DNA of 11,470 nt from NCBI GenBank assembly GCA_902495265.1, contig CABUWR010000022.1:1-11470 (forward strand), written 5' to 3'. The notes beneath the pieces were generated by a model. The model was given only the letters and a program-made list of their open reading frames with translations. It had not been told where the DNA came from and searched no databases. Below are positions 1 to 11,470 of the stretch, in pieces. The position numbers and the translations under genes are program-made. The first letter of the stretch is position 1; each line of letters begins with the position of its first letter. The stretch is from an uncultured Collinsella sp. Its GTDB lineage: Bacteria > Actinomycetota > Coriobacteriia > Coriobacteriales > Coriobacteriaceae.

Positions 1-10
1 CAGTCCCAAC

Positions 11-33
11 TGATATAGGAAACATCTATATCA
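11..33. promoter_or_regulatory. Inverted repeat TGATATAG-N7-CTATATCA, candidate LysR-type operator
   Basis: The arms at 11-18 and 26-33 are a perfect 8-bp inverted repeat with a 7-nt spacer. The core contains T-N11-A (T16 to A28), the arrangement typical of LysR-family regulator sites. It lies about 87 bp before the MetE-like start, in the AT-richest part of the window, with possible -10 hexamers just downstream (TATAAA at 40-45, TATATT at 48-53). I see no convincing -35. No regulator gene is visible; it could lie left of the window. The repeat is seen directly; its role as an operator is inferred. Confidence 0.45.
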
Positions 34-65
34 AACTGTTATAAATGTATATTTTACGATGGCCA

Positions 66-79
66 TATGAGCGCTCATA
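66..79. promoter_or_regulatory. Perfect 14-bp palindrome TATGAGCGCTCATA
   Basis: TATGAGC and GCTCATA meet without a spacer, giving a perfect palindrome 40 nt before the MetE-like start codon. It lies downstream of the AT-rich candidate -10 region, so it would fall in or near the 5' end of the transcript. It could be a repressor operator. It has no T-run after it and does not look like a terminator. Confidence 0.35.
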
Positions 80-119
80 CTCTGTCCCAGTAAAGCAACC
101 AATGCAAAGGGAGATATCT

Positions 120-1253
120 ATGAGCATTTCGATTCAGCCGAACGCGCCGTTTCGCGCCGATATTGTCGGCAGTTTTCTTCGCCCGCAGGCCGTAAAGGAC
201 GCCCGCGCTGCCTATGCTGCGGGCACACTCGACGCCGCCGGCCTTAAGGCCGTCGAGGACGATGCCATTCGCGATTTGGTGGCAAAGCAGAAGGCCGCTG
301 GCCTGCAGGTGATTACCGATGGCGAGTTCCGCCGCAGCTACTGGCATCTCGATTTTATGTGGGGTCTCAACGGCATTGAACGCCGTACCTCGCGTACGGG
401 CTATATGTTCCACGACGAGGAGACTACCGCCGACACCGCCATGGTGACCGGCCCCATCAGCGGCGAGAACCACCCCTTCGTCGAGCACTTTAAGTTCGTC
501 AAGGCACTTGAGGGCGAGGGCCACGTTGCACGCCAGACCATCCCGGCGCCTATCCAGACGTTCTCTGAGGTCACGCTCGATCGCTGCGACGGCCAGCAGG
601 AGAGCCTGCGCGCTGTCTATAAGACCGATGAGGAACTTGCCGACGCCATTGCGGCCGCTTATCGCACGGTGATCGCCGACCTGTACGCAGCAGGTTGCCG
701 CAACATCCAGTTTGATGACTGCACCTGGGGCATCTACTGCGATACCGACTTTGTCGCCAAAACCGGCATGAGCCCGGTCGACCTGCAAAAGGTAAGCGAG
801 TTGGGCGTGGCGCTCAACAACGCCGCCATCGAGGGCAAGCCCGATGACCTGGTCATTAACACACACGTGTGCCGTGGTAACTACCATTCTACCTATGCCT
901 TCGAGGGCGGCTATGACCCCATCGCGCCGTACCTGTTCGCAAACGAGGATGTCGACGCATTTTACCTGGAGTTCGATACGCCGCGCGCCGGTGGTTTTGA
1001 GCCGCTGAAGTATGTTGCCCCCGGCAAGAAGGTCGTGTTGGGCCTGGTAACCACCAAGGCCGCTGAGCTTGAGGACGAGGATGTCATCGTCGAGCGTATT
1101 CACGAGGCTGCAAAGTACGTGCCGCTCGAGAACCTGTATCTGTCGCCCCAGTGCGGCTTTGCCAGCTGCGAGATTGGCAACAAGCTGACCGAGGACGAGC
1201 AATGGGCAAAGATCGCGCTGGTCAAGCGCGTTGCCGAGCGCGTTTGGAAATAG
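120..1253 (+). CDS. MetE C-terminal-type cobalamin-independent methyltransferase (YxjG/YxjH-like)
   Basis: A 377-residue protein of the methionine synthase II family (COG0620) that corresponds only to the catalytic C-terminal barrel of MetE. The zinc-ligand pattern of MetE is present: H249 and C251 (NTHVCRGN), E284 (FYLEFD) and C345 (SPQCGF). Other family blocks are ITDGEFRR at 65-72 and FDDCTWG at 198-204. The start at 120 is chosen because AAGGGAG at 107-113 lies 6 nt upstream; upstream in-frame codons have no such site. Stand-alone proteins of this size, such as Bacillus YxjG/YxjH, are thought to methylate homocysteine or related thiols from a donor other than the full MetE substrate system. 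The donor here cannot be read from sequence. It is cytosolic. It shares its strand with the uracil permease 122 bp downstream, with no clear terminator between them, so read-through is possible. Confidence 0.88.
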   Translation: MSISIQPNAPFRADIVGSFLRPQAVKDARAAYAAGTLDAAGLKAVEDDAIRDLVAKQKAAGLQVITDGEFRRSYWHLDFMWGLNGIERRTSRTGYMFHDEETTADTAMVTGPISGENHPFVEHFKFVKALEGEGHVARQTIPAPIQTFSEVTLDRCDGQQESLRAVYKTDEELADAIAAAYRTVIADLYAAGCRNIQFDDCTWGIYCDTDFVAKTGMSPVDLQKVSELGVALNNAAIEGKPDDLVINTHVCRGNYHSTYAFEGGYDPIAPYLFANEDVDAFYLEFDTPRAGGFEPLKYVAPGKKVVLGLVTTKAAELEDEDVIVERIHEAAKYVPLENLYLSPQCGFASCEIGNKLTEDEQWAKIALVKRVAERVWK

Positions 1254-1323
1254 CGGTAACGTTCGCAGGTGACGGCGCGTGCGAGACATGGCGTATCGCG
1301 TACAATGGTTCGGATCGTATCGT

Positions 1324-1349
1324 TCGGGCAGGTTATCCGATATGCCCGA
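1324..1349 (+). promoter_or_regulatory. Weak hairpin in the leader of the uracil permease gene
   Basis: TCGGGCA (1324-1330) and TGCCCGA (1343-1349) form a 7-bp stem with a 12-nt loop, 26 nt before the permease start codon. A possible -10 (TACAAT at 1301-1306) lies just upstream without a recognisable -35. I do not see the conserved PyrR binding-loop sequence known from Bacillus pyr leaders, nor a T-run, so a pyrimidine attenuator is not supported. The hairpin may be chance in GC-rich DNA. Confidence 0.2.
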
Positions 1350-1375
1350 TCGCCCTTCCATTCGAAAGGACATCC

Positions 1376-2710
1376 ATGTCCCAATCCTCGACGCCCGCCG
1401 TCACCGATGCCATCTACGATGCGTCGTCGCTCGGCCGCCCGCGCATGTTCCTGCTCGGTCTGCAGCACCTGTTTGCCATGTTTGGCGCCACCGTGCTGGT
1501 GCCCGTGCTCACCGGTCTCTCGGTTTCGGCGACGCTTTTGTTTGCCGGCCTGGGCACGCTGCTGTTCCACTTCCTGTCGCGCGGTAAGGTGCCGGCATTT
1601 TTGGGCTCATCGTTTGCCTTTATTGCCGGTTATGCCGCCATCGCGCCCAACGGCGAGGCCGAGCTTTTGCCCTACGCTTGCCTGGGCGTAGCTTGTGCCG
1701 GCCTGCTCTATCCGGTGCTGGCGGCCCTGTTCCGCGCGTTTGGCGCCAAGCGCGTCATGCGCTTCTTCCCGCCGGTGGTGACTGGCCCTATCGTCATTTC
1801 CATCGGTCTGATTCTGGCAAGCTCCGCTATTGCCAACTGCCAGACCAATTGGTTCGTCGCCGTTATCGCCGTGGCAGTGATCGTCATCTGCAACATCTGG
1901 GGCCGCGGCATGGTCAAGATCGTGCCGATCCTGCTGGGCGTTGCGGTGAGCTATGCCGTTGCGACTGCGCTCGGCGAGGTTGATTTCTCGGGCGTTGCCG
2001 CCGCTCCGTGGGTCGGTCTGCCCATCGTGTGGGATAACACCGTGTTTGCGCTCTTTGGGCCGCAGTTCGATAGCGGCCTTGCCACGACGGCCATCATCAC
2101 CATTATGCCGCTGGCATTTGCGACCATGATCGAGCATATCGGTGATATCTCGGCTATCGGCTCCACTTGCGAGCGTAACTACATCGCCGATCCTGGCCTG
2201 CATCGCACGCTGCTCGGCGACGGCCTTGCCACGATCCTGGCTTCGCTCTTTGGCGCTCCGGCCAACACCACGTATGGTGAGAACACCGGCGTGCTTGCCC
2301 TGACGCGCGTGTTTGACCCGCGCGTGATTCGCATTGCCGCGTGCTGCGCCATCGTGCTTTCGTTCTGCCCCAAGTTCGCGGCTGTCATTGCGGCCATGCC
2401 GGCGTGTGTTATCGGCGGCGTGTCGCTTGTGCTCTATGGCATGATCAGCGCCGTGGGCGTTCGCAACCTCATCGAGAACCAGGTCGATTTCCAGAACAAC
2501 CGCAACGTGCTGGTGGCCGCTCTGGTGCTCGTGCTTTCACTCGGCATTGCCTATAGCACCGCCGGTGCCATCGTGCTGGAGCTGGGCGGCGTGACGATTT
2601 CGCTTTCCGGTCTTGCCGTGGGCTCGCTGGTGGGTATCGTGCTCAACGCGATTCTGCCTGGTAACGACTTTGAGTTCGATGTCTCTGAGCTTGAGGAGGC
2701 TGCTGAGTAG
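1376..2710 (+). CDS. uraA: Uracil permease, NCS2 family (UraA-like)
   Basis: A 444-residue, very hydrophobic inner-membrane protein with the 14-segment NCS2 pattern, expected to import uracil by proton symport for pyrimidine salvage. Family motifs are visible: FLGSSFAFI at 75-83, the segment around E253 (ATMIEHIGD), and the signature ANTTYGENTGVLALTR at 296-311 with E302. E253 and E302 correspond by a constant offset of 12 to uracil-binding E241 and E290 of E. coli UraA. The third UraA contact, H245, is D257 here. The start is set by GAAAGGA at 1364-1370, 5 nt before ATG 1376; the longer open frame upstream overlaps the preceding gene and lacks family similarity. The acidic C-terminus (DFEFDVSELEEAAE) is cytosolic. 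A strong terminator follows at once. Substrate preference for uracil over xanthine is inferred from the TTYGEN signature. Confidence 0.92.
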   Translation: MSQSSTPAVTDAIYDASSLGRPRMFLLGLQHLFAMFGATVLVPVLTGLSVSATLLFAGLGTLLFHFLSRGKVPAFLGSSFAFIAGYAAIAPNGEAELLPYACLGVACAGLLYPVLAALFRAFGAKRVMRFFPPVVTGPIVISIGLILASSAIANCQTNWFVAVIAVAVIVICNIWGRGMVKIVPILLGVAVSYAVATALGEVDFSGVAAAPWVGLPIVWDNTVFALFGPQFDSGLATTAIITIMPLAFATMIEHIGDISAIGSTCERNYIADPGLHRTLLGDGLATILASLFGAPANTTYGENTGVLALTRVFDPRVIRIAACCAIVLSFCPKFAAVIAAMPACVIGGVSLVLYGMISAVGVRNLIENQVDFQNNRNVLVAALVLVLSLGIAYSTAGAIVLELGGVTISLSGLAVGSLVGIVLNAILPGNDFEFDVSELEEAAE

Positions 2711-2735
2711 CAGCTGTGTTCAGCTAGAACAAGAT

Positions 2736-2773
2736 ATGGTGCCCATGCGTATATGCGCGTGGGCACCATTTTT
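2736..2773 (+). terminator. Rho-independent terminator of the uracil permease
   Basis: The stem ATGGTGCCCA (2736-2745) / TGGGCACCAT (2760-2769) is perfect, and the loop extends it by four more pairs (one G-U) to give about 14 bp around TATATG. It is followed by TTTT at 2770-2773. It lies 26 nt after the permease stop and overlaps the stop codon of the convergent esterase by two bases. It may also act on the opposite strand, though the T-run there is poor. Confidence 0.9.
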
Positions 2774-3434
2774 AATGCGTCAGTATCCAGTGGATGCCGC
2801 GGGCCATGCGCAAGTCGGTTTGGGCAAAGTGGTTGCCGGGGTTGAGCTCCAGCGTTGTTGGGATGCCGCGCTCGATGAGTAGCTCTTCCATTGCGCGCGT
2901 GTCGTCGAGTGCATGCCGCATCATGCGGTTGGGCGTCTTGGTTTCCTTTTTGCCGAGTGACAGGTAGACGGCTTGCGGGCTGCCGGCAAAAGGGGCCGTG
3001 CTGGCACGGTCGACAAAGTCGGGAAACCATAGCGACCCCGATGCACTTGCGGCGCGGTCAAAGGCATCGGTTTGCCAGAGGGCCCAAAGCGAAAAGAGAC
3101 CCGCCAGCGAATAACCGGCAATGCCACGCCAAACAGGTGGCTGTGGGAGCGACGACTCGACCTGGGGGATTATCTGATTCAGCAGCTCATCAAGAAAATC
3201 GGCAGCTTGGCCGCCGAAAGGCTCGGCATCGCGTACGGTCCCGTCGCATGCCCAGGGGCTCAGCTCACGATTCCAATCGAGCCCGCCAATGGCTACAAGG
3301 GTGAACGGTGGGCAGTCGAGCTCTCGGCAGCGGTCATAAACATCACTACCGTCGCCCATGACCACGGGAAGGTAGATGACGGGCGCACCTTCCGTGTGTT
3401 CCGAATGAACGGTTATCTGCTTTTGCGCTTCCAA
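2772..3434 (-). CDS. Putative alpha/beta-hydrolase esterase (IroE/BesA/Fes-type, PF00756-like)
   Basis: A 220-residue protein with the putative-esterase fold of the enterobactin/trilactone hydrolase type. The nucleophile elbow is GYSLAG at 107-112 with S109; the likely catalytic His is H202 in PGNHF; E164 in SLGKKET fits the acid position of this subgroup. The block DWNRELSPW (53-61) is typical of the family. There is no signal peptide, so it is cytosolic. The open frame is closed upstream by TGA at 3447-3449, and the only plausible initiator is TTG at 3434-3432, preceded by an AGAGAAG-like ribosome site about 6 nt upstream. The substrate is unknown: no siderophore genes are visible nearby, so a ferric-siderophore role is not supported by context. 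It is the last gene of the leftward run and has a terminator between it and the surface gene upstream. Confidence 0.78.
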   Translation of the reverse strand: MEAQKQITVHSEHTEGAPVIYLPVVMGDGSDVYDRCRELDCPPFTLVAIGGLDWNRELSPWACDGTVRDAEPFGGQAADFLDELLNQIIPQVESSLPQPPVWRGIAGYSLAGLFSLWALWQTDAFDRAASASGSLWFPDFVDRASTAPFAGSPQAVYLSLGKKETKTPNRMMRHALDDTRAMEELLIERGIPTTLELNPGNHFAQTDLRMARGIHWILTH

Positions 3435-3546
3435 GGCAGGCTTCTCTCAGTGTTGTGATATCGGCAGCCCCAATTGTCGCACGCCAGCGTATGCCGGTTG
3501 GGCTAGACCAAAGACAATCTCGTGCATCCCCTGCGGACGCATATGG

Positions 3547-3584
3547 AAAACGCCACCGCCGGAGGGGAGCTCGGCGGTGGCGTT
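3547..3584 (-). terminator. Rho-independent terminator of the distal surface-protein gene
   Basis: A perfect 12-bp stem AACGCCACCGCC (3549-3560) / GGCGGTGGCGTT (3573-3584) with a 12-nt loop. Read on the - strand, the stem is followed by TTTTCC (from the AAAA at 3547-3550). It lies 57 nt past the stop of the surface gene. From here to the esterase start (3435-3546) I see no gene; the esterase promoter must lie there, but no good -35/-10 pair stands out. Confidence 0.85.
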
Positions 3585-3641
3585 GTTAAACGGTGCTGGG
3601 GCTCGGGGCCTTCGCGGGAGCTGCCATGTGCGCAGAGGCGT

Positions 3642-5423
3642 CTAAGAACGCTTACGGCTCGCCATGGTGCCTGCGGCGATAGCGGCTGTTCCCGCAAGGA
3701 CGGTTGCCACGATGGCCGCACCCGAGGTGTCGCCGGTTGCCGCGAGCACGCCGGTAGTCTTGGCTTTCGTGGTTGAAGCCGCAACGGCCTTGGTCGGCTT
3801 TGAGCCCTCAGGCTTGGGGTTCTGCTTGGACTCCGCGGGCTTGCTTTCTGCGGGCTTGGTCTCGTCGGGCTTGGGGTCTTCCGGCTTGGCTACCTCGGGA
3901 GGTGCGATGGTCGTACTTTTGGCGACTGCTTTGATATAGAGGGAGTCGACCGTGGCGTCGCCCGTGCCGATGGCTTGGCCTGCCTCGTAGATGCCGTCAC
4001 GGAGCTTGCGATAGTCAATGACCTTGCCGCCTTCGGGCGTCTGGATGGCGGCGTTCTCAATCTTGATGGTGCCGATTGTCTTGCCGTCAGCGCTCAGGGC
4101 ACGGGCAAAGATTGCCGCTGTATCTCCTTCGGCCGTTACTTTGCTGCGGATGATCGAGATGACTGCGGGTGTGACGCCCTCGCTGGTCTGGGCGATGATG
4201 CCGATGTTCTCGCCTTGGGGTTCGCGCCTCGTCTCGCCATCTTGGTTTTCGTTGTAGGGGATGGGGCCGTCGCCGTTCTCGACATAGCGGGCTATGGCCT
4301 TGACAACGGAGTCGCTGATGTAGATGTGGCCGCCCTTCTCGTTGGGTCGATCGTTTCTGGTGGAGAATGCAGCCGAAACCTCGCCTTCCGCGAATGCATC
4401 CACGATCGAGCCGTTCTTGATGACGATGTCATCCCCGTCGGCGAGGAGTGCGATAGCTTGGCCGTCGCCCTCGCTTGTACGGACCGTCACGGTCGCGTGG
4501 TCGAGCGTAATGCCCTTGTAGCCATAGACGCCATATTTAGCACTGCTTGCATTAAGGGAGGCGTTCGTGACCGTGAGACTGCCCTCAGCGTCGACGGCAA
4601 GAGTTTCCTTGGAGCTCGCCTCGACCTGGCTGCCGCCCGAGATATCGATGTTGCCGCCAGCCCAAATCGCCACGTCCTTGATAGGGCTTGCCTCTACCGT
4701 GCCGCCGCCCTTGATGGTGAGGTTTCTCCCGGCAACGATTCCCTGATCCTCGGTAGCCTTGGCGGTGACGGCTCCGCTGTCGTCAATCGTGATATTGCCG
4801 TTTGCCCTGATGCCATCCGATGCACCCGTGGCGTTGACGTTGCCCGAACCTTTGATAGCGAGATCACCTCCGGCATTGATGGCATCAAACCCAGTGCTCG
4901 TGGCGTTGACGGATCCGGCTCCGTCGATGTTGATATTACCCGTGGAGAGGATAGCGTCCTCAGTAGATGTCACGCTGAGCGTGCCGCCCTCGTCGCCTTG
5001 GATATTGAGCTCGGCATTCTCGTTAGTGCCATGAGAAACGTTGATGCTTTCGATCCATTCGGCAGTGACGATGTTGGTTCCCGAGTAATTCACGTTGAGC
5101 TTGCCTGCGGCCTGGATCTCGCCGCCGTTATAGTTGTTGAGCTTCAAGTCGTCGGCGCCGTCCCACGACCAGGTACCGGCCTCGTCGCTCGCCGCGGTGT
5201 TGTACTTGTTGCCGCCGACCTTGACCCATTCCGCTGCGAGCGAGACGCTCGGCATGAGCAGCGAGCTCACCGTGAGCGCGCACACGGCGCCCGAGACGAT
5301 GCGGCGCGTCACGCGGCGCCGGCTGCCGTGCGCGAGTCCTATGCGACGGCGAACGTCGGGTTCGGCAACATGGGTTCCGGCGGTAGTGTCATTGCGTTTG
5401 GGGGTCGTGAACAAGGCTGCCAT
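3642..5423 (-). CDS. Wall-anchored beta-helix surface protein, carbohydrate-binding-domain type (distal copy)
   Basis: A 593-residue secreted protein. Residues 1-41 are a long basic n-region (RRR at 25-27, RRRVTRR at 35-41), 42-60 are hydrophobic and the likely cleavage is after SLA at 61-63. Residues about 160-310 are rungs of 23-24 residues with the pattern G-N-I-x-I-x-G-x-G-x-V-x-A, as expected for a right-handed parallel beta-helix; this resembles the Cthe_2159/DUF4353 carbohydrate-binding proteins. Residues 500-557 are a Lys/Pro/Glu-rich wall spacer, then LAATGD (560-565), a hydrophobic segment and RKRS: a sortase signal of the LAxTG type described for class E sortases. No catalytic site is seen. 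The start is set by GGGAG five nt before ATG 5423, at the same spacing as in the paralogue. The ligand (glycan or host surface) is unknown; the carbohydrate-binding label rests on family resemblance only. Confidence 0.8.
   Translation of the reverse strand: MAALFTTPKRNDTTAGTHVAEPDVRRRIGLAHGSRRRVTRRIVSGAVCALTVSSLLMPSVSLAAEWVKVGGNKYNTAASDEAGTWSWDGADDLKLNNYNGGEIQAAGKLNVNYSGTNIVTAEWIESINVSHGTNENAELNIQGDEGGTLSVTSTEDAILSTGNINIDGAGSVNATSTGFDAINAGGDLAIKGSGNVNATGASDGIRANGNITIDDSGAVTAKATEDQGIVAGRNLTIKGGGTVEASPIKDVAIWAGGNIDISGGSQVEASSKETLAVDAEGSLTVTNASLNASSAKYGVYGYKGITLDHATVTVRTSEGDGQAIALLADGDDIVIKNGSIVDAFAEGEVSAAFSTRNDRPNEKGGHIYISDSVVKAIARYVENGDGPIPYNENQDGETRREPQGENIGIIAQTSEGVTPAVISIIRSKVTAEGDTAAIFARALSADGKTIGTIKIENAAIQTPEGGKVIDYRKLRDGIYEAGQAIGTGDATVDSLYIKAVAKSTTIAPPEVAKPEDPKPDETKPAESKPAESKQNPKPEGSKPTKAVAASTTKAKTTGVLAATGDTSGAAIVATVLAGTAAIAAGTMASRKRS
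4515..4937 (-). repeat. Coding repeat: beta-helix rungs of 69-72 bp in the distal surface gene
   Basis: Residues 163-304 can be laid out as about six successive 23-24-residue rungs, beginning NINIDGAGSVNA, DLAIKGSGNVNA, NITIDDSGAVTA, NLTIKGGGTVEA, NIDISGGSQVEA and SLTVTNASLNA. The similarity is at protein level; at DNA level the units have drifted apart, so slippage between them is not obvious. Confidence 0.7.
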
Positions 5424-5520
5424 GGTTGCTCCCGTTCTCATAGGGCCTATACGACTAGATTCAGCGTATCTGCTGGATGTTGCCGGCGGTAGTGCCGTTT
5501 GGAGGGCAAAATGGCCAAAA
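5424..5520 (-). promoter_or_regulatory. Leader/promoter region of the distal surface gene (duplicated)
   Basis: This stretch aligns closely with 7480-7575 before the paralogue. Shared blocks include the run GGCGGTAGTGCCGTTTGG (+ strand), GGAGGGCAAAATG, TATCTGC-GGATGT, and the near-palindrome ATAGGGCCTAT (5440-5450) just before the GGGAG ribosome site. Neither copy shows a clear consensus -35/-10 pair, so the promoter is inferred from position and conservation. Confidence 0.5.
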
Positions 5521-5559
5521 TGGGGGAGAAATAGGCCGCACGCCGGCGCAGGGACCGGC

Positions 5560-5601
5560 GCTAAAAGAAAAGCGCGGGGCCGCATGGCGACTCCGCGCTT
5601 T
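5560..5601 (-). terminator. Copied permease terminator, now downstream of the proximal surface gene
   Basis: An 11-bp stem (5569-5579 with 5591-5601, one G-U pair) with an 11-nt loop. On the - strand the arm ends CCGCGCTTT and runs into TCTTTTAG. It is homologous to the terminator at 7626-7660 that follows the intact permease, with nearly the same stem. In its new place it lies 94 nt past the stop of the surface gene at 5695. Confidence 0.88.
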
Positions 5602-5627
5602 ATTGTTCAGCTTTTGCAGCCTTGCCC

Positions 5628-5672
5628 TTACGCTACGAAGAAGTAGACGAGGAAGGCAAGGGCCGCGATCCA
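5628..5672 (-). pseudogene. Remnant of the purine permease 3' end (14 codons + stop)
   Basis: Read on the - strand this encodes WIAALAFLVYFFVA and stop, identical in protein to the last 14 residues of the permease at 7687-8997. Only three of 45 bases differ: CTC to CTT (Leu), GCA to GCG (Ala), and stop TAG to TAA. Upstream of the Trp codon the match ends. It has no start and cannot be a gene; it marks the breakpoint of the duplication. Confidence 0.9.
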
Positions 5673-5694
5673 CCCGTCCCGTGCGAAAAAGTGT

Positions 5695-7479
5695 TTACGA
5701 GCGCTTGCGGCTCACCACGGCGCCCGCGGCGATGGCGGCTGTTCCTGCAAGGGCGGCTGCCACGATGGCTGCGCTCGAGGCGTCGCCGGTTGCTGCGAGT
5801 TTGCCGGCGATCTTGGCTCCCGTGGCTGCAACTGCAACGGTCTTGGTCGTCTTCGTGCCCTCGGACTTGGAACCCTCGGGCTTGGTCTCGCCGGGCTTCT
5901 CCTCGGGTTTGATCTCCTCGGGAGGCGCGATGACCGTGCTCTTGGCGACAGCTTCGTCGTAGGGGGAGTCGACCGTGGCGTCGCTCGTGCCGATGGTTTG
6001 ACCCGCCTCGTAGGAGATGCTGGAGCCGTACTCTTCTTCGTAGCGATAGTTAATGATCTTGCCGCCTGCGGGCGCCTGGATGGGAGCGCCTTCGATCTTG
6101 ATGGTGCCGATCGCCTTGCCATCTTCGCTTATGGCAAGAGCGAAGATTGCCGCCGTGTCTCCCTCAGCCGTGAGCTTGCTGCGGACGATCGAGATACTCG
6201 CGGGCGTGATGCCCTCGTAGGTCTGGGCGAAGATACCGATGTTCAGACCCCTAGGCTCAGGGATGACCGCGCCGCTTTGGTCGTTGCTGTAGTGATCGGG
6301 GCCATCGCCACCGGTCTCGACATAGCGGGCTATAGCCTTAACAACGGAGTCGCTGATGTAGATGTGGCCGCCAGCGACGTTTGGCTGGTGGTTTCTGGTA
6401 GAGATTGCAACCGAGAATTTGCCTTCCGCGAACGCGTCCACGATGGAACCATTCTTGATGACGATGTCATCCCCGTCAGTGATGAGGGCGATGGCCTGGC
6501 CGCCGCTCGCGCTTGTACGGACCGTCACGGTCGCGTGATCGAGCGTAACGCCCTTGTAGGCATAGACACCATATTCAACACCGCTTGCGTCAAGGGAGGC
6601 GTTCGTGACCGCGAGACTGCCCTCAGTGTCGACGGCAAGATCTCCCTCGGAGTTCGCCTTGACCTGGCTGCCGCCTGAGATGTTGATGCCGTCTTCAGCC
6701 CAAATCGCCGCTTCTTCTATCGAGCTTGCTTCTACCTTGCCACCGCCTTTGATGGTCAGGTCACTGCCTGCGGCGATGCCGTAGCCTTCGCCTCCTTTAG
6801 CGATCACGGTGCCAGAGGAATCGATGGTGGTCTTGCCCTTGGATTGGATACCTTCGGTATCGCCCGTTGCATTCACGGTGCCCGAGCCCGTGATAGAGAG
6901 GTCGCCCTTTGCCTCAATTCCGTCGGCAGTAGTACTTGTGGTGTTCACGGTGCCTGGGCCAGAAATGGAGAGGTCGCCTGTGGATTTAATTGCATCGGTC
7001 TCGGCTGTCACATTGAGCTCATCCGTGCTATTCGAGCTCGTTATGTTCAACTCCGCTTTCTGGTTAGTGCCATCCTGCGCTTTGATGGCGGCTCCGGTGT
7101 AATCGGGCTCGGTTTTCACGGTGTTCTTGCCCTCGTACGCAATGTTGAGCTTGCCTGCAGCATTGATCGCACCGCCGTCATAGCCGTTGAGCTTCATATC
7201 GTCGGCGCCGTCCCATGACCAGGTGCCAGCCTCGTCACCCGCCGCGGTGCCAGCGTCATACCGGCTGCCGCCGACGTCCACCCACTCGGCCGCGAGCGAG
7301 ACACTCGGCATGAGCAACGAGCTCACCGTGAGCGCGCAGGTCAGACCACAGACGATGCGGCGTGTCACGCGACGCCAGCTTCCGTGTGCGAGCAGCGTGC
7401 GACGGCGCACGTCGGGCTCGACAAAATGGGCTCCAGAGGTTTTGTCATTGCGCTTGGGGGTCGTGAACAAGGCGGCCAT
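5695..7479 (-). CDS. Wall-anchored beta-helix surface protein, carbohydrate-binding-domain type (proximal copy)
   Basis: A 594-residue paralogue of the protein at 3642-5423 with the same plan: basic n-region (RRVTRR at 36-41), hydrophobic 42-60, likely cleavage after SLA at 61-63, rungs at about 169-310, a Lys/Pro/Glu spacer at about 518-548 (shorter than in the other copy), LAATGD at 561-566, a hydrophobic segment and RKRS. The blocks DHATVTVRTS (314-323), DDIVIKNGSIVDAFAEG (337-353) and GGHIYISDSVVKAIARYVE (370-388) are almost identical in both copies, while residues about 66-170 and 390-415 vary. The start is set by GGGAG five nt before ATG 7479. It is expected to be secreted by Sec, trimmed by sortase and held on the cell wall. 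Function is unknown; beta-helix and glycan binding are inferred from the rung pattern and family resemblance. Confidence 0.8.
   Translation of the reverse strand: MAALFTTPKRNDKTSGAHFVEPDVRRRTLLAHGSWRRVTRRIVCGLTCALTVSSLLMPSVSLAAEWVDVGGSRYDAGTAAGDEAGTWSWDGADDMKLNGYDGGAINAAGKLNIAYEGKNTVKTEPDYTGAAIKAQDGTNQKAELNITSSNSTDELNVTAETDAIKSTGDLSISGPGTVNTTSTTADGIEAKGDLSITGSGTVNATGDTEGIQSKGKTTIDSSGTVIAKGGEGYGIAAGSDLTIKGGGKVEASSIEEAAIWAEDGINISGGSQVKANSEGDLAVDTEGSLAVTNASLDASGVEYGVYAYKGVTLDHATVTVRTSASGGQAIALITDGDDIVIKNGSIVDAFAEGKFSVAISTRNHQPNVAGGHIYISDSVVKAIARYVETGGDGPDHYSNDQSGAVIPEPRGLNIGIFAQTYEGITPASISIVRSKLTAEGDTAAIFALAISEDGKAIGTIKIEGAPIQAPAGGKIINYRYEEEYGSSISYEAGQTIGTSDATVDSPYDEAVAKSTVIAPPEEIKPEEKPGETKPEGSKSEGTKTTKTVAVAATGAKIAGKLAATGDASSAAIVAAALAGTAAIAAGAVVSRKRS
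6550..6975 (-). repeat. Coding repeat: beta-helix rungs of 69-72 bp in the proximal surface gene
   Basis: Residues 169-310 form about six rungs, beginning DLSISGPGTVNT, DLSITGSGTVNA, KTTIDSSGTVIA, DLTIKGGGKVEA, GINISGGSQVKA and SLAVTNASLDA. They align one to one with the rungs of the paralogue, so the rung number predates the duplication and has not changed since. Confidence 0.7.
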
Positions 7480-7575
7480 GGTTACTCCCATCCTCATAGG
7501 GCCTATGCGATTACGCCCAGCATATCTGCAGGATGTAGCCGGCGGTAGTGCCGTTTGGAGGGCAAAATGTCCAAA
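7480..7575 (-). promoter_or_regulatory. Leader/promoter region of the proximal surface gene
   Basis: Homologous to 5424-5520. It includes the perfect palindrome CATAGG-G-CCTATG at 7495-7507, directly upstream of the GGGAG ribosome site, which may be an operator or mRNA hairpin. No consensus promoter is clear. Confidence 0.5.
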
Positions 7576-7611
7576 ACTTGGGAAGCAATACATCGCGCGT
7601 CCGTGCGTAGC

Positions 7612-7660
7612 CTGGCTTTAAAAGAAAAGCGCGGAGCCGCTCGATGCGACTCCGCGCTTT
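7612..7660 (-). terminator. Rho-independent terminator of the purine permease
   Basis: A perfect 11-bp stem AAAGCGCGGAG (7626-7636) / CTCCGCGCTTT (7650-7660) with a 13-nt loop. On the - strand the stem is followed by TCTTTTAAAG. It begins 26 nt after the permease stop, so permease and surface gene are likely separate transcripts. Confidence 0.9.
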
Positions 7661-7686
7661 GGTGTTCTGCTTTGGCAGCTTTGCCG

Positions 7687-8997
7687 CTACGCTACGAAGA
7701 AGTAGACGAGGAAGGCGAGGGCTGCGATCCACATGAGCGGCTTGATCTTGGAAGCCTCGCCCTTAAAGAGCGCGACGACCACGTAGGCGATAAAGCCCAG
7801 GCCAATGCCGGCAGAGATGGAGTAGGTGAAGGGCACGCCGGCGACGATCATGAACGCCGGGAAACCCTGCGACACGTCGGACCAGTCGATCTCGGAGGCC
7901 TCGCTCATCATGAGGTAGCCGACGTAGACCAGAGCACCGCAGGTGGCGGCGCTGGAAACGATGGTGACGATGGGGGAGAAGAACGCGGCGAGAATGAACA
8001 GCACGCCGGTGGTGACGGAGGTGAGGCCCGTGCGGCCACCGTCGGCAGCGCCAGAGGTGGACTCGACGAAGGTGGTGATGGAGGAGACGCCCATGAAACC
8101 GCCCACAGCAGCGGCGGCGGAGTCGACGATCAGGATCTCCTTGATATTCTCGACGTTGCCGTCGTCGGTGAGGAACTCGCCCTGCTTGGCCACGGCCATC
8201 GCGGTGCCCATGGTGTCGAAGAAGTCACTCATGAGCAGCGAGAACGAGATGACGAGGAGCGCGGGGTCGGTAAGGACCTTGACGATGGCGGGCACGCCGC
8301 CGGCGTCGGCGATGGGGCCACCGATGCTCGAGAAGTCGAGCGGGGCGATGATACCGGTCGGAGCCTGGGTCACACCTAGGGGGATACCGGCGATGACGGC
8401 GACGACGATGCCGATGAGCAGCGAGCCGGGGACGTTGCGGCAGGCGAGGGCGACCGTCACCAGGATGGAGATGATGCCGACGATGAAGGTGGGGGAGGTG
8501 ATGTCGCCCAGACCGACGAGTGTACCGGCGCCAGCGGTGATAATGCCGGCATCGCACAGGCCAATCATGGCGATGAACAGGCCCAGACCCACCGAGATGG
8601 CGTGACGCAGGACAACCGGGATGGCGTCCATGATGGCCTCGCGCAGGCCACAAAGCACGAGCAGCAAGATGACGATACCCTCGAGGAAGATGACGCTCAT
8701 GGCCACGTGCCAGTCACCGCCGCAGACGGTGGTGGTGATTCCGGCGATCATCGCGTTGACGCCTAAGCCCGACGCGCAGGCGAGCGGGCGGTTGGCGAAG
8801 ATGCCCATGCAGATGGTCATGATGCCGGCGCCCAGGCAGGTGGCGCAGGCGAGCGCTCCCGCATCGATGCCGGCGCCCGAGAGCACCGCAGGGTTGACGG
8901 CGATGATGTAGGCCATCGCCAGGAATGTTGTCAGTCCAGCGCGAAGTTCGGTCCCGATTGTGGACTTGCGCTCACTGACGTGAAAAAGTTCGTCCAT
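7687..8997 (-). CDS. Purine (hypoxanthine/guanine/adenine) permease, NCS2 AzgA/PbuG type
   Basis: A 436-residue polytopic membrane protein of the AzgA-like branch of NCS2, expected to take up nucleobases by proton symport. Motifs in order: MAYIIAVNPAVLSGAG (28-43), the substrate-site segment ACASGLGVNAMIAG (73-86) with N81, SDFFDTMGT (257-265) with D261, and GVSSITTFVESTSG (303-316) with E312, then GGRTG (320-324). The start is ATG 8997, with AAGGAAAGG six nt upstream; a 15-residue in-frame extension is not needed by the family alignment. The promoter lies in the 193-bp gap it shares with the divergent deformylase homologue, which holds a direct repeat that may be a purine operator. Codon choice is strongly GC-biased, as in a well-expressed native gene. 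Exact base preference cannot be read from sequence. Its last 14 codons are duplicated at 5628-5672. Confidence 0.93.
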   Translation of the reverse strand: MDELFHVSERKSTIGTELRAGLTTFLAMAYIIAVNPAVLSGAGIDAGALACATCLGAGIMTICMGIFANRPLACASGLGVNAMIAGITTTVCGGDWHVAMSVIFLEGIVILLLVLCGLREAIMDAIPVVLRHAISVGLGLFIAMIGLCDAGIITAGAGTLVGLGDITSPTFIVGIISILVTVALACRNVPGSLLIGIVVAVIAGIPLGVTQAPTGIIAPLDFSSIGGPIADAGGVPAIVKVLTDPALLVISFSLLMSDFFDTMGTAMAVAKQGEFLTDDGNVENIKEILIVDSAAAAVGGFMGVSSITTFVESTSGAADGGRTGLTSVTTGVLFILAAFFSPIVTIVSSAATCGALVYVGYLMMSEASEIDWSDVSQGFPAFMIVAGVPFTYSISAGIGLGFIAYVVVALFKGEASKIKPLMWIAALAFLVYFFVA

Positions 8998-9071
8998 GCA
9001 TACCCTTTCCTTGTTCGGCCCCGAGTTTAGGCCGATTGACACGAACTCAACTACTATATCGCCTTTGAAAG

Positions 9072-9098
9072 GTTGATGTTCCTCGCATGTTGATGTTC
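9072..9098. promoter_or_regulatory. Direct repeat GTTGATGTTC x2, candidate operator of the purine permease
   Basis: Two perfect 10-bp copies at 9072-9081 and 9089-9098, with a 17-bp period (just over one and a half helical turns). On the - strand the second copy plus flank reads CCGAACAT (9100-9093), close to the core of the Bacillus PurR box (CCGAACWWT); the other reads GGAACAT. It lies 75-100 bp before the permease start and about 55-80 bp before the candidate -10 of the deformylase homologue. Bacillus PurR boxes come in inverted pairs, so the direct order here does not match exactly. Confidence 0.4.
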
Positions 9099-9151
9099 GG
9101 CGCTTTGTAGCAGACGGACGGTATTTTTCGCATGAAAATGTGTGGGTACCG

Positions 9152-9157
9152 TATACT
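9152..9157 (+). promoter_or_regulatory. Candidate -10 box TATACT for the deformylase-homologue gene
   Basis: TATACT is one base from the consensus TATAAT and lies 33 nt before ATG 9191, giving a short leader. No good -35 is seen at 16-18 nt upstream (the sequence there is CGCATG-like), so the assignment rests on the -10 alone. Confidence 0.4.
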
Positions 9158-9190
9158 TAAGCAGTTACAACGACCCCTATGGAGGAACGT

Positions 9191-9610
9191 ATGATTAAAG
9201 AGCTCTGCCACGACGAGGCTGTTCTGTCCCAGCGTTGCGAGGTCGCGACCGTCGAGGACGAGTCGGTGGCACAGGACCTGATCGATACCATCAAGTCGCT
9301 CGACGATGCCGGCTGCCTTGCCGCTAACCAGATCGGCGTCACCAAGAAGGTCTGCGTCTACCTGGACGATGCCGGCGAGCCCCACGTGCTCTACAACCCC
9401 CGTTTGGTGTTTGGCCTGGGCGCCAGCAAGATGGAGGAGAGCTGCCTGACGCACGAGGAGGTCACCAAGTCCACGCGCTATATCAAGTGCAAGGTTGCCT
9501 TTGACCAGATTGTCGACGGCAAGATGAAGGAGTGCCGCCGTGACTACGCGGGCTTTGAGGCACAGATGGTCCAGCATATGATCGACCACTGTCTTGGAAA
9601 GTTGGTCTAA
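9191..9610 (+). CDS. Peptide deformylase homologue lacking the catalytic Glu (HMxxH)
   Basis: A 139-residue protein of the short peptide deformylase family of anaerobes. Motif I is AGCLAANQ at 40-47, motif II ESCLT at 83-87 with metal ligand C85, and motif III QHMIDH at 128-133 with metal ligands H129 and H133. In active deformylases motif III is HExxH and the Glu is the general base; here that residue is M130 (codon ATG, 9578-9580). Motif II also departs from EGCLS at two positions. Metal binding may persist, but removal of the N-formyl group from new proteins is not expected in the usual way. The start at 9191 is chosen over ATG 9179 because GGAGGAA at 9181-9187 fits the former. It is divergent from the purine permease and probably a single-gene transcript. 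It may have another role, or be a non-catalytic paralogue of a true def gene elsewhere. Confidence 0.85.
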   Translation: MIKELCHDEAVLSQRCEVATVEDESVAQDLIDTIKSLDDAGCLAANQIGVTKKVCVYLDDAGEPHVLYNPRLVFGLGASKMEESCLTHEEVTKSTRYIKCKVAFDQIVDGKMKECRRDYAGFEAQMVQHMIDHCLGKLV

Positions 9611-9713
9611 GGGGACCAAAGCACCGCACCTTGCCGCTCAATCGTCGCTCGCGTACCTTAAGTACGCTTCGCTCCTCTTTCGTGGCAATCTGCGGCACTT
9701 TGACCCCTTAGAC
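9605..9713. repeat. 109-nt imperfect inverted repeat overlapping the stop codon of the deformylase homologue
   Basis: The outer arms GTCTAAGGGG (9605-9614) and CCCCTTAGAC (9704-9713) are perfectly complementary. Moving inward, AAAG/CTTT, CCGCA/TGCGG and TTGCC/GGCAA also pair, separated by 2-3-nt mismatches. After an unpaired 15/16-nt internal loop there is a tip, GCGTAC (9651-9656) / GTACGC (9662-9667), with the loop CTTAA. The left arm starts at the last sense codon (GTC) of the gene. The form suggests a palindromic intergenic element or MITE-like remnant, or a structured RNA. There is no coding sequence in 9611-9854. Confidence 0.6.
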
Positions 9714-9754
9714 GACCTGCGGGGTTAACTTGGTTGAGTTTATCCAGCTTGAAT

Positions 9755-9797
9755 AGTCCGGGCGTGACATTGTTGTCATGTCCGGGCTTTTGTGTTT
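9755..9797 (+). terminator. Rho-independent terminator before the bile salt hydrolase
   Basis: AGTCCGGGCGTGACA (9755-9769) pairs with TGTCATGTCCGGGCT (9774-9788) over 15 bp with three G-U pairs and a TTGT tetraloop, followed by TTTTGTGTTT. It probably ends the transcript of the deformylase homologue. As it lies only 67 nt before the hydrolase start, a role as a leader attenuator of that gene cannot be excluded. Confidence 0.8.
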
Positions 9798-9854
9798 AGC
9801 GCCTTTTTGTTTGGAGACAATGAACTTGGCAGGAACGTAAAGCTAGGAGGCGCT

Positions 9855-10820
9855 ATGTGTACGAGTATTCGATTTACCGATAATTCTGGCCACATGTATC
9901 TGGGCCGCAACCTCGACTGGAGCTTTGACTACGGCCAACAGGTTCGCGTGATGCCGCGCGGATTTCACATTCCGTATTCGTTTATCGACGACGCGACAGC
10001 GGCACACGCGGTGATCGGTATGTGCATCGATTACAAGAACTACCCTATGTTCTTCGATTGCGGCAACGATACGGGCCTCGCCGTGGCGGGCCTCAATTTC
10101 CCGGGTTATGCCGAGTATGCCGAGGGGCCGGTTGATGGAAAGATCAATATCGCGGCTTATGAGTTTCCCCTGTGGGTGGCAGCGACGTTCTCGACGGTCG
10201 ATGAGGTCGAGGCCGCGCTGCGCGACACGGTGATTGTTGCCAAATCTGCAGGAGAGGGGCTGGGCGTGTCGCTGCTCCATTGGATTATCGGCGACAGCCA
10301 GCGCAGCATCGTGGTCGAGATGATGGCTGATGGCCTGCATGTATACGACGATCCGGTCGACACCCTTGCCAACCAGCCGACCTTCCCGTGGCACATGGAA
10401 AACCTGCGCACCTATATCACCGCCACAAGCGATTTTCCGCAGACGGCGAAGTGGCGTGGCGCCGAGCTTAAGCCCTATGGAGCCGGTGCCGGCATGCGCG
10501 GTATTCCGGGTGACTGCTATTCGCCGAGCCGTTTTGTAAAGGCGGCGTACCTCAATGCCAATTACCCGCAAAAGGAGAGCGAGACCGAAAACGTCGTCCG
10601 CATGTTCCGCTCGCTCGAGGGCGTGGTGATGATCGAGGGGGCGTCCAGGATGGGCGATGGCAAGTTCGAGAAGACTATCTACACCGGATGCTTTAGCGCG
10701 CGCACGGGCAATTATTACTACGCGATGTATGGGGATCCGTCGATTCGCTACGTGAGCCTGATGGATGCCGAGGGCGCAAGCCCCGATAGGCTCGTGGTTC
10801 CCGAGCCGCGTCGTTCGTAG
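9855..10820 (+). CDS. bsh: Choloylglycine hydrolase / bile salt hydrolase (Ntn hydrolase)
   Basis: A 321-residue linear-amide C-N hydrolase, the usual family length, expected in the cytosol (no signal peptide). It would cleave glycine or taurine from conjugated bile acids. After Met removal, Cys2 becomes the N-terminal nucleophile (MCTSIRF). All the other catalytic positions of the family are seen: R18 and D21 (GRNLDWS), N81 (GLNFPGYAEY), N173 (LANQPTF) and R226 (SPSRFVKA). Asn at position 81/82 is typical of bile salt hydrolases, while characterised penicillin V acylases such as that of Bacillus sphaericus have Tyr. The start is fixed by Cys2 and by a perfect AGGAGG at 9845-9850, four nt before ATG 9855. 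The promoter should lie in 9792-9854, but no clear hexamers are seen. It is a single gene between two terminators. Tauro- versus glyco-preference cannot be read. Confidence 0.93.
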   Translation: MCTSIRFTDNSGHMYLGRNLDWSFDYGQQVRVMPRGFHIPYSFIDDATAAHAVIGMCIDYKNYPMFFDCGNDTGLAVAGLNFPGYAEYAEGPVDGKINIAAYEFPLWVAATFSTVDEVEAALRDTVIVAKSAGEGLGVSLLHWIIGDSQRSIVVEMMADGLHVYDDPVDTLANQPTFPWHMENLRTYITATSDFPQTAKWRGAELKPYGAGAGMRGIPGDCYSPSRFVKAAYLNANYPQKESETENVVRMFRSLEGVVMIEGASRMGDGKFEKTIYTGCFSARTGNYYYAMYGDPSIRYVSLMDAEGASPDRLVVPEPRRS

Positions 10821-10843
10821 CCGTTAGCTTTACTGCAATGCAA

Positions 10844-10879
10844 AGCGGCCCTGCGTCTCTCGTGAGGTGCAGGGCCGCT
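10844..10879. terminator. Shared terminator between bile salt hydrolase and Kup-type gene
   Basis: A perfect 11-bp stem AGCGGCCCTGC (10844-10854) / GCAGGGCCGCT (10869-10879) with a 14-nt loop that can add CTC/GAG pairs. It sits between the convergent stops at 10820 and 10900. The + side is followed by GTCGTTGATTTG and the - side by TTGCATTGCAGTAAAG, so the T-runs are modest. It probably serves both strands. Confidence 0.75.
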
Positions 10880-10899
10880 GTCGTTGATTTGTGACGTCG

Positions 10900-11470
10900 C
10901 TAGAAGTTGGCGTCGTTGAGCTGGGTGCTCTCGAGGCCGTCGAGCTGTTGCTGTTCGGGCGTATCGGCGACGCTCTCGAGCAGCTCGGTGGGATCGACGT
11001 TCATGTTCTTGCCGGCTTCGTTGCCGTTGACCAGGTCGTCCGAGAAGATGTCGACTTCCATTTCCTCAGCTTCCTCGATCTGAACTTCGAGCGGCACCTG
11101 GGTGCGTACGAGTTTGACTGCCGGACGCATACGGGCAAAGAGGGGCACGTACTCGATAATGATGGCCGAGTTCTCGAGACCGTACCAACGTGCCGGGCTT
11201 CCGCAGGCGCGGCGGACGGCGTACTTGATGGCCATGACGCGATGGTCGTTGCGGTTGATGTCCGTTTCGGGGGCAAGCATCTTGCGCAGCATACAAAAGC
11301 GGAAGTCACCCACGTTGCCGCGTGTCTCGTAGATGGAGTAGGTGTGATGCTGCGGTGGCAACTCACCCGATGCCATCAGGTCGCCAACGATCTGGCGCAG
11401 GTAGGCGTTGATGCGCTGATTGACCTTAAAGCCCAGGTCCAGGCGCACGCGGAACAAAAAGTCCGTGCCA
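10900..11470 (-). CDS. Kup/HAK/KT-type potassium transporter, C-terminal cytosolic part (partial, runs off window)
   Basis: The last 189 residues of a larger protein; the frame stays open through the right edge (GTDFLFRVRLDLGFK...), so the TTG at 11457 is an internal Leu and not a start. The visible part matches the soluble C-terminal domain of Gram-positive Kup potassium uptake proteins: LGFKVNQRINAYLRQIV, SGELPPQHHTYSIY, GDFRFCMLRK, and GSPARWYGLENSAIIIEYVPLF. The last 60 residues are acidic and Gln/Asn-rich (EEAEEMEVDIF...) with no hydrophobic segment. The family imports K+ with protons across the membrane; all the transmembrane part lies outside the window, so this call rests on the tail only. 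It is convergent with the bile salt hydrolase, sharing a hairpin between them. Confidence 0.8.
   Translation of the reverse strand, partial: GTDFLFRVRLDLGFKVNQRINAYLRQIVGDLMASGELPPQHHTYSIYETRGNVGDFRFCMLRKMLAPETDINRNDHRVMAIKYAVRRACGSPARWYGLENSAIIIEYVPLFARMRPAVKLVRTQVPLEVQIEEAEEMEVDIFSDDLVNGNEAGKNMNVDPTELLESVADTPEQQQLDGLESTQLNDANF

Follow-up and report, generated by a model that had tools for sequence, protein, structure and literature searches.

A permease-tail remnant between two tandem surface-protein genes of Collinsella as a possible scar of allele stacking

Introduction

Tandem duplication and amplification of bacterial DNA leave a head-to-tail repeat with one novel join at short homology and a truncated fragment of a neighbouring gene, and the repeat can later be lost by crossover. 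Here we analysed a stretch of 11,470 nucleotides from an uncultured Collinsella sp. (assembly GCA_902495265.1, contig CABUWR010000022.1, positions 1 to 11,470; hereafter the window), in which two related surface-protein genes, called U and D, follow a purine permease gene and are separated by a 45-bp remnant of the permease end. The repeat, the join and the neighbour fragment resemble those of a tandem duplication, but the two copies are strongly diverged while the remnant is not.

For the orphan immunity arrays of the type VI secretion system (T6SS) of Vibrio cholerae, a published model proposes that an incoming module is anchored by upstream homology and joined illegitimately, that the old downstream gene is retained and pushed back, and that in one of the steps the 3' end of a displaced effector gene is pushed back along with it; the arrays may afterwards travel by homologous recombination (PMC5361080). 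Compared with this model, the Collinsella locus would be alike in its upstream homologous anchor, its illegitimate downstream join and the retention of an old gene and a 3' end, since a homologous anchor gene stands upstream and its 3' remnant lies between the modules. It differs in that the displaced end comes from a housekeeping permease which is still intact upstream, in that the modules are surface proteins and not immunity genes, and in having a single join. In both systems the mechanism is inferred. Taken-up DNA can also create tandem duplications, as described for transformation merodiploids of Streptococcus pneumoniae; the main duplications there, unlike the Collinsella locus, are repeat-based and about 100-900 kb in size, and one 3.3-kb case lacked flanking repeats (PMC3784515). 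Among the papers listed in our searches of an open-access library, largely judged by title, none described the present join. The type of event is already known in bacteria, and this locus adds an example.

Results

Along the minus strand of the window the gene order is permease, U, D and an esterase-like gene. U (5695..7479, 594 aa) and D (3642..5423, 593 aa, 66% identity to U) form a head-to-tail repeat that is colinear in the alignment from the permease tail through the gene, the repeat unit consisting of permease tail, terminator, leader and surface gene. The initial annotation had proposed that the 45 bp between the surface genes encode the last 14 residues and the stop of the permease (7687..8997), and both the intergenic alignment and the translation bear this out. 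The remnant (5628..5672, minus strand), translated from 5672 to 5628, reads WIAALAFLVYFFVA followed by a stop, which is identical to the end of the permease, and, set against the final codons and stop of the live permease (7731-7687, minus strand), it carries two synonymous changes and has TAA in place of the TAG stop. When aligned, the two intergenic regions agree at 213 of 246 aligned columns, with 11 further columns of gaps; the alignment begins at the TGG codon of the permease and stops shortly before the surface-gene ATG. The remnant pattern was matched twice in the window and not at all in 200 dinucleotide shuffles. The proposed extent of the unit and a tandem pair containing one novel join are likewise supported.

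The breakpoint had been placed at the TGG codon between 5672 and 5673. Its location holds, but the position shifts by one base, as identity extends past the TGG codon by one base, to the G that ends the ATG codon before it (5673); judged by the alignment, the join is at 5673/5674 or within the one-base overlap. At the breakpoint a single G at 5673 is shared, a candidate microhomology. U has kept 21 bp of its own downstream flank up to the join (5674..5694, minus strand), and these were found in 8 aligned genomes. Behind the remnant, copies of the permease terminator and of the surface-gene leader follow, as had been noted: the terminator copy, now 3' of U (5569..5601, minus strand), folds at -22.9 kcal/mol (z -3.64), compared with -29.0 kcal/mol (z -6.85) for the original hairpin of 15 pairs and a U-tract (7626..7660, minus strand), and the leader motif precedes both surface genes. 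D is followed by a native surface-gene terminator hairpin (3549..3584, minus strand, -27.1 kcal/mol, z -6.23). A hairpin of this native type also follows the surface gene in genome G003 and in Collinsella bouchesdurhonensis, as seen by eye, whereas it is absent 3' of U in a by-eye comparison with the flanks of D and G003. Within 5568-5697, the start of the remnant is predicted to pair with bases past its stop, which would give a second hairpin ahead of the terminator.

An 85-bp query spanning the join gave 32 matches in total among 43 genus genomes. The full-length junction was present in 8 of the 43, always directly behind the U gene (identity 100% in six, 96-99% in two), and the join was at the same position in the 8 aligned genomes. 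Another 23 partial matches, one per genome in 23 genomes, began at the TGG codon and would be, as expected, the permease's own tail (surroundings were viewed for some only); one weak match of 29 bp was seen in G043. In both collections together, each with one genome per species, and with genomes present in both counted once (among them L003=G007, L006=G012, L009=G001, L010=G033, L012=G032, L014=G027, L015=G020, L016=G004 and L019=G034), the join was found in ten genomes, namely the window, L003, L004, L006, L009, L010, L015, L016, L019 and G008, which most simply trace to one event. The D gene of L003 and L015 lies on a separate contig of the same genome (G007 and G020, respectively), and that of L010 is cut by a contig end. 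The D spacer of G007 and of G020 is interrupted by sequence whose ends resemble inverted repeats (L003 end and L115 start; L015 and L114 end and L113 start), which by eye looks like insertion elements entering between U and D.

That the 45-bp match might belong to a dispersed element unrelated to the permease had been named as a possible refutation. Such a repeat was rejected, as beyond the permease tails and the weak G043 match the 43 genomes held no copy and no full-length junction elsewhere. An assembly artefact was rejected as well, since separate assemblies of isolates and of metagenome-assembled genomes (MAGs) share the junction, including G008, which carries the U/D pair on a 1.37-Mb contig. 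We consider the probability of either explanation to be negligible.

For copy number, 80 of 196 loci were kept and L001-L021 only were used, L022 having no surface-gene match and L023-L080 being more distant permeases without a surface gene; the frequencies of copy states are not population estimates. In the comparison across relatives that the initial annotation had suggested, loci without a unit, with a single unit and with two units all turned up. Ten of L001-L020 are in the zero-copy state (L001, L002, L005, L007, L008, L011, L013, L017, L018 and L020), with the esterase directly following the permease and no surface gene between them. A search of the family (65 genomes from six genera) gave surface-gene matches at E <= 1e-20 in 12 genomes, each of them a member of this genus. 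A direct repeat of 12-13 bp (about ACGCYGGCGTGCG) was noticed by eye in the window and in L013, within the D spacer and again 5' of the esterase, and a stretch resembling it is present once in cassette-free strains; cassettes may have been lost or gained there.

Single-copy relatives were expected to show the order permease-surface gene, and this was the case in G003 and L014 (permease-surface-esterase) but not in the outgroup C. bouchesdurhonensis (L021), where the single copy stands behind the esterase and not behind the permease; this goes part of the way towards the refutation that the initial annotation had named. L014 carries D alone: its six first diagnostic sites are permease-type and all later ones D-type, and the switch falls within five identical bases just past the permease stop, the pattern expected of a crossover between permease tail and remnant. 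In L012/G032, a U-type leader and gene start are followed by a body of the D type, in which the frame is disrupted by one additional base, and this gene is a probable U/D chimera. The junction query matched only the permease tail in G032; in this genome, a MAG, the two contigs share 55 bases at the leader, so that a second copy may be hidden. G003 has a U-type gene alone on a single contig, with the native-type terminator behind it. Candidate donor and recipient chromosomes with a single module are G003 (U only) and L014 (D only), although L014 resembles a crossover product and the flank of G003 does not match.

In the tree, U genes and D genes formed separate groups (support 100/100, 10 rows each). 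Synonymous divergence (dS) was tabulated for three two-copy genomes (the window, L006 and L016) of the ten, and within these genomes U and D differed by 0.30-0.44 towards the ends of the gene and by 0.53-0.94 in its central part. The L021 copy was roughly equidistant from U and D (dS 0.30-0.81 against either). Among seven in-group strains the permease dS was 0.04-0.26, and the esterase dS among seven strains was 0.09-0.79; alleles as different as U and D therefore occur at the locus. Two strongly differing versions of the central part of U occur (window versus L006, dS 0.78, compared with 0.135 at the C-terminus), which suggests that this region has been exchanged.

None of the 31 nondegenerate sites of the remnant, and 3 of its 14 degenerate sites, differ from the live permease tail, whereas the U and D spacers differ at 6 of 26 sites before the terminator and at 17 of 42 after it. 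Compared with these blocks, which were picked after the alignment had been seen and exclude the conserved terminator and leader, the 0/31 remnant sites gave Fisher p values of 0.006 (before) and 1.5e-5 (after). The lack of nondegenerate changes is compatible with a neutral branch <= 0.097. Across 8 genomes, variable sites made up 2/46 of the remnant versus 8/238 elsewhere in the junction block (p 0.67), and the remnant is under no visible extra constraint compared with its surroundings. The junction block is less variable (10/284) than the U side (40/263) in the same 8 genomes; this count omits L003 and L015, in which the junction runs off the contig, and L015 would add one remnant stop-codon change. 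Contrary to what a simple tandem duplication predicts, the copies and the join remnant appear not to have diverged for an equal time, with the proviso that the sample is small and gene conversion possible.

The 32-bp conserved leader motif, read in the window at 7543..7574 for U and at 5487..5518 for D (both minus strand), also stands 5' of the U and D genes of relatives. As TTGGNCATNTTNNNNNCCNAANGGCACTANCG with <=3 mismatches, it was found 5' of U, of D and of the C. bouchesdurhonensis gene and in 22 of the 43 genus genomes (reversed control 0). Since the motif is shared, D would have kept a promoter region like that of U. A scan of 3400-7760 for sigma-70-type promoters found none, with ~1 expected by chance, and an Rfam search of the window at gathering thresholds gave no known RNA element. 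A simple terminator scan returned 9 hits (4.7 expected), which included the permease terminator but neither its copy nor the hairpin of D; these two are supported by folding. The leader motif also precedes an apparent secreted protein beside a LuxR-type regulator in L128 and L131, the two further loci inspected (labels from reading of the translations), and it is possible that the motif marks a regulon.

By reading, the N-termini of U and D contain an export-like region, and U appears to end in an LPXTG-like C-terminal sortase anchor (TIGR01167, cutoff 15.9; U 16.5 bits, E 0.0098; D no hit). The structure model of U has a beta-strand-rich core with a predicted local distance difference test (pLDDT) score mostly >90 from about residue 70 to 360 and a mean of 68. 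With this model, Foldseek found no solved structure at E <= 0.001 (best E 0.0027), and its best matches, which include an alginate epimerase, a fucoidan lyase and the adhesin PfbA, indicate a general beta-helix resemblance only. Proteins of the anchored Cthe_2159 type (PF14262) are alike in a predicted beta-strand core and a C-terminal anchor, but U and D scored just below the Pfam cutoff of 25.8 (25.3 and 25.0 bits). U and D are probably cell-wall-anchored beta-helix surface proteins, for which carbohydrate or host-surface binding is a plausible predicted role. The U gene of L004 (L004:11520-13469) encodes 650 aa, compared with 565-599 aa in the other U and D genes compared. The locus is bounded upstream by the permease (minus strand; Xan_ur_permease, PF00860, 99 bits, cutoff 27) and downstream by the esterase-like gene (2772..3434, minus strand; PF00756, 34.1 bits, cutoff 22).

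Discussion

We read the locus as a two-unit tandem array of related surface genes that arose by the stacking of already different alleles, an explanation to which we give about an even chance. Incoming DNA carrying permease and U, from a putative horizontal source, would have entered a chromosome carrying permease and D by homologous recombination at the permease and an illegitimate join at the opposite end. A single illegitimate join would thereby connect the end of the U unit, 21 bp past its stop, to the last 14 codons of the permease preceding the D unit, leaving the last 45 bp of the resident permease, its terminator and D downstream. The remnant may thus be the old end of the resident permease, pushed downstream by the permease-U segment. 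The transcript of U, which lacks a terminator of its own type, is probably ended by the copied permease terminator, as this copy still folds; the retained terminator would stand in for the one that U lost, while D retains a leader like that of U. In the putative order of events, the repeats of tail and spacer and of the genes would later serve as crossover sites at which U is removed or fused with D, and the block would spread among relatives by homologous recombination.

Evidence for this reading comes from the age of the join. A remnant that had been noncoding since the split of U and D should show nondegenerate changes; none were seen, so that the join is probably younger than the split and, on the simplest reading, U and D had diverged before it was made. 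Divergence of the modules before joining, as in a displacement array, is thereby indicated indirectly, gene conversion being possible. Several points weigh against it. The age argument rests on 31 nondegenerate sites only, the likeness of the remnant could also stem from short tracts converted by the permease, and the replaced middle of U in some strains inflates the U/D divergence. The whole U and D spacers, terminator and leader included, are 81% identical in the window. In the L016 remnant one base is of the permease type and one codon shows an L-to-P change, and the exact codons of the remnant occurred in none of 23 aligned permease tails. The midpoint-rooted tree puts the outgroup L021 on the side of D (96/95, short branch), which makes the U/D divergence relative to C. 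bouchesdurhonensis uncertain. By eye, the 21-bp flank of U is no nearer to that of the single-U genome G003 than to that of D. Homology-facilitated illegitimate recombination itself is termed putative, and such joins rare, in the V. cholerae study (PMC5361080).

The main and strong rival is an ordinary tandem duplication within one chromosome, by slippage or end joining, followed by divergence, with the remnant kept alike by short conversion or by chance; this is close to the claim of the initial annotation that the second surface gene came from a segment starting inside the permease. The tandem geometry supports that claim, whereas simple copying and subsequent divergence does not agree with genes and an unconserved spacer that are far more diverged than the remnant. 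A duplication predicts the unit order, the colinear repeat and the single join, requires no rare one-sided recombination and would suit the 21-bp flank of U, which by eye matches the native flank of D at 13 of 21 positions. However, the remnant, which shows no sign of extra constraint, is too similar for the age implied by the genes and the unconserved spacer, and the single U-type locus of G003 has a 3' flank unlike that of D. We regard this explanation as possible, with a modest probability. It has also to be considered that the duplication was recent and that U, with its spacer and gene, then gave way to divergent alleles acquired from other strains by homologous recombination. The mosaic structure of U in the window and L006 and the higher variability of the U side compared with the junction side fit such replacements, but the U types still cluster apart from D and the outgroup (96/95), and a U lineage distinct from D therefore predates them. 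We consider this course of events unlikely.

Which unit was resident was assessed by comparing the spacers of all ten zero-copy strains with those of U and D. Behind the terminator, 9 of the 10 cassette-free strains are closer to the D spacer (best L013, 23 versus 14 of 26). In the sequence before the terminator 10 of 10 are closer to U, and in the terminator itself 9 of 10 are; the spacer of L007 is identical to that of U through the terminator. The evidence is mixed and the spacers are mosaics. Between the 9 two-copy and the 10 zero-copy strains compared, the permease had no fixed differences, and only alignment column 1308 leaned strongly among the two-letter sites; nor was a breakpoint of an imported arm found in it, which also speaks against stacking. 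No link was seen between the two-copy state and the permease background, and the block therefore moves among strains, whichever way the founding event ran.

In a wider sense, the permease 3' end could be a landing site at which one-sided homologous recombination stacks diverged surface modules, each event leaving a fossil of the permease tail together with a reusable crossover repeat. We consider this generalization rather doubtful; if true, one would expect to find strains that carry at least three units, and a commensal would possess a push-down surface-protein array like the effector-immunity arrays of V. cholerae. In any case, the join is a readable scar of how a bacterium gained a second surface protein, and the same scar (in L014) or the gene copies (in G032) look like sites of later crossovers in relatives. 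Our findings further suggest that the copied terminator of a neighbouring gene can stand in for one lost at a breakpoint, and that the remnant of a neighbour's tail need not imply a simple duplication. For the typing of Collinsella strains, the locus offers a combined marker of copy number and allele.

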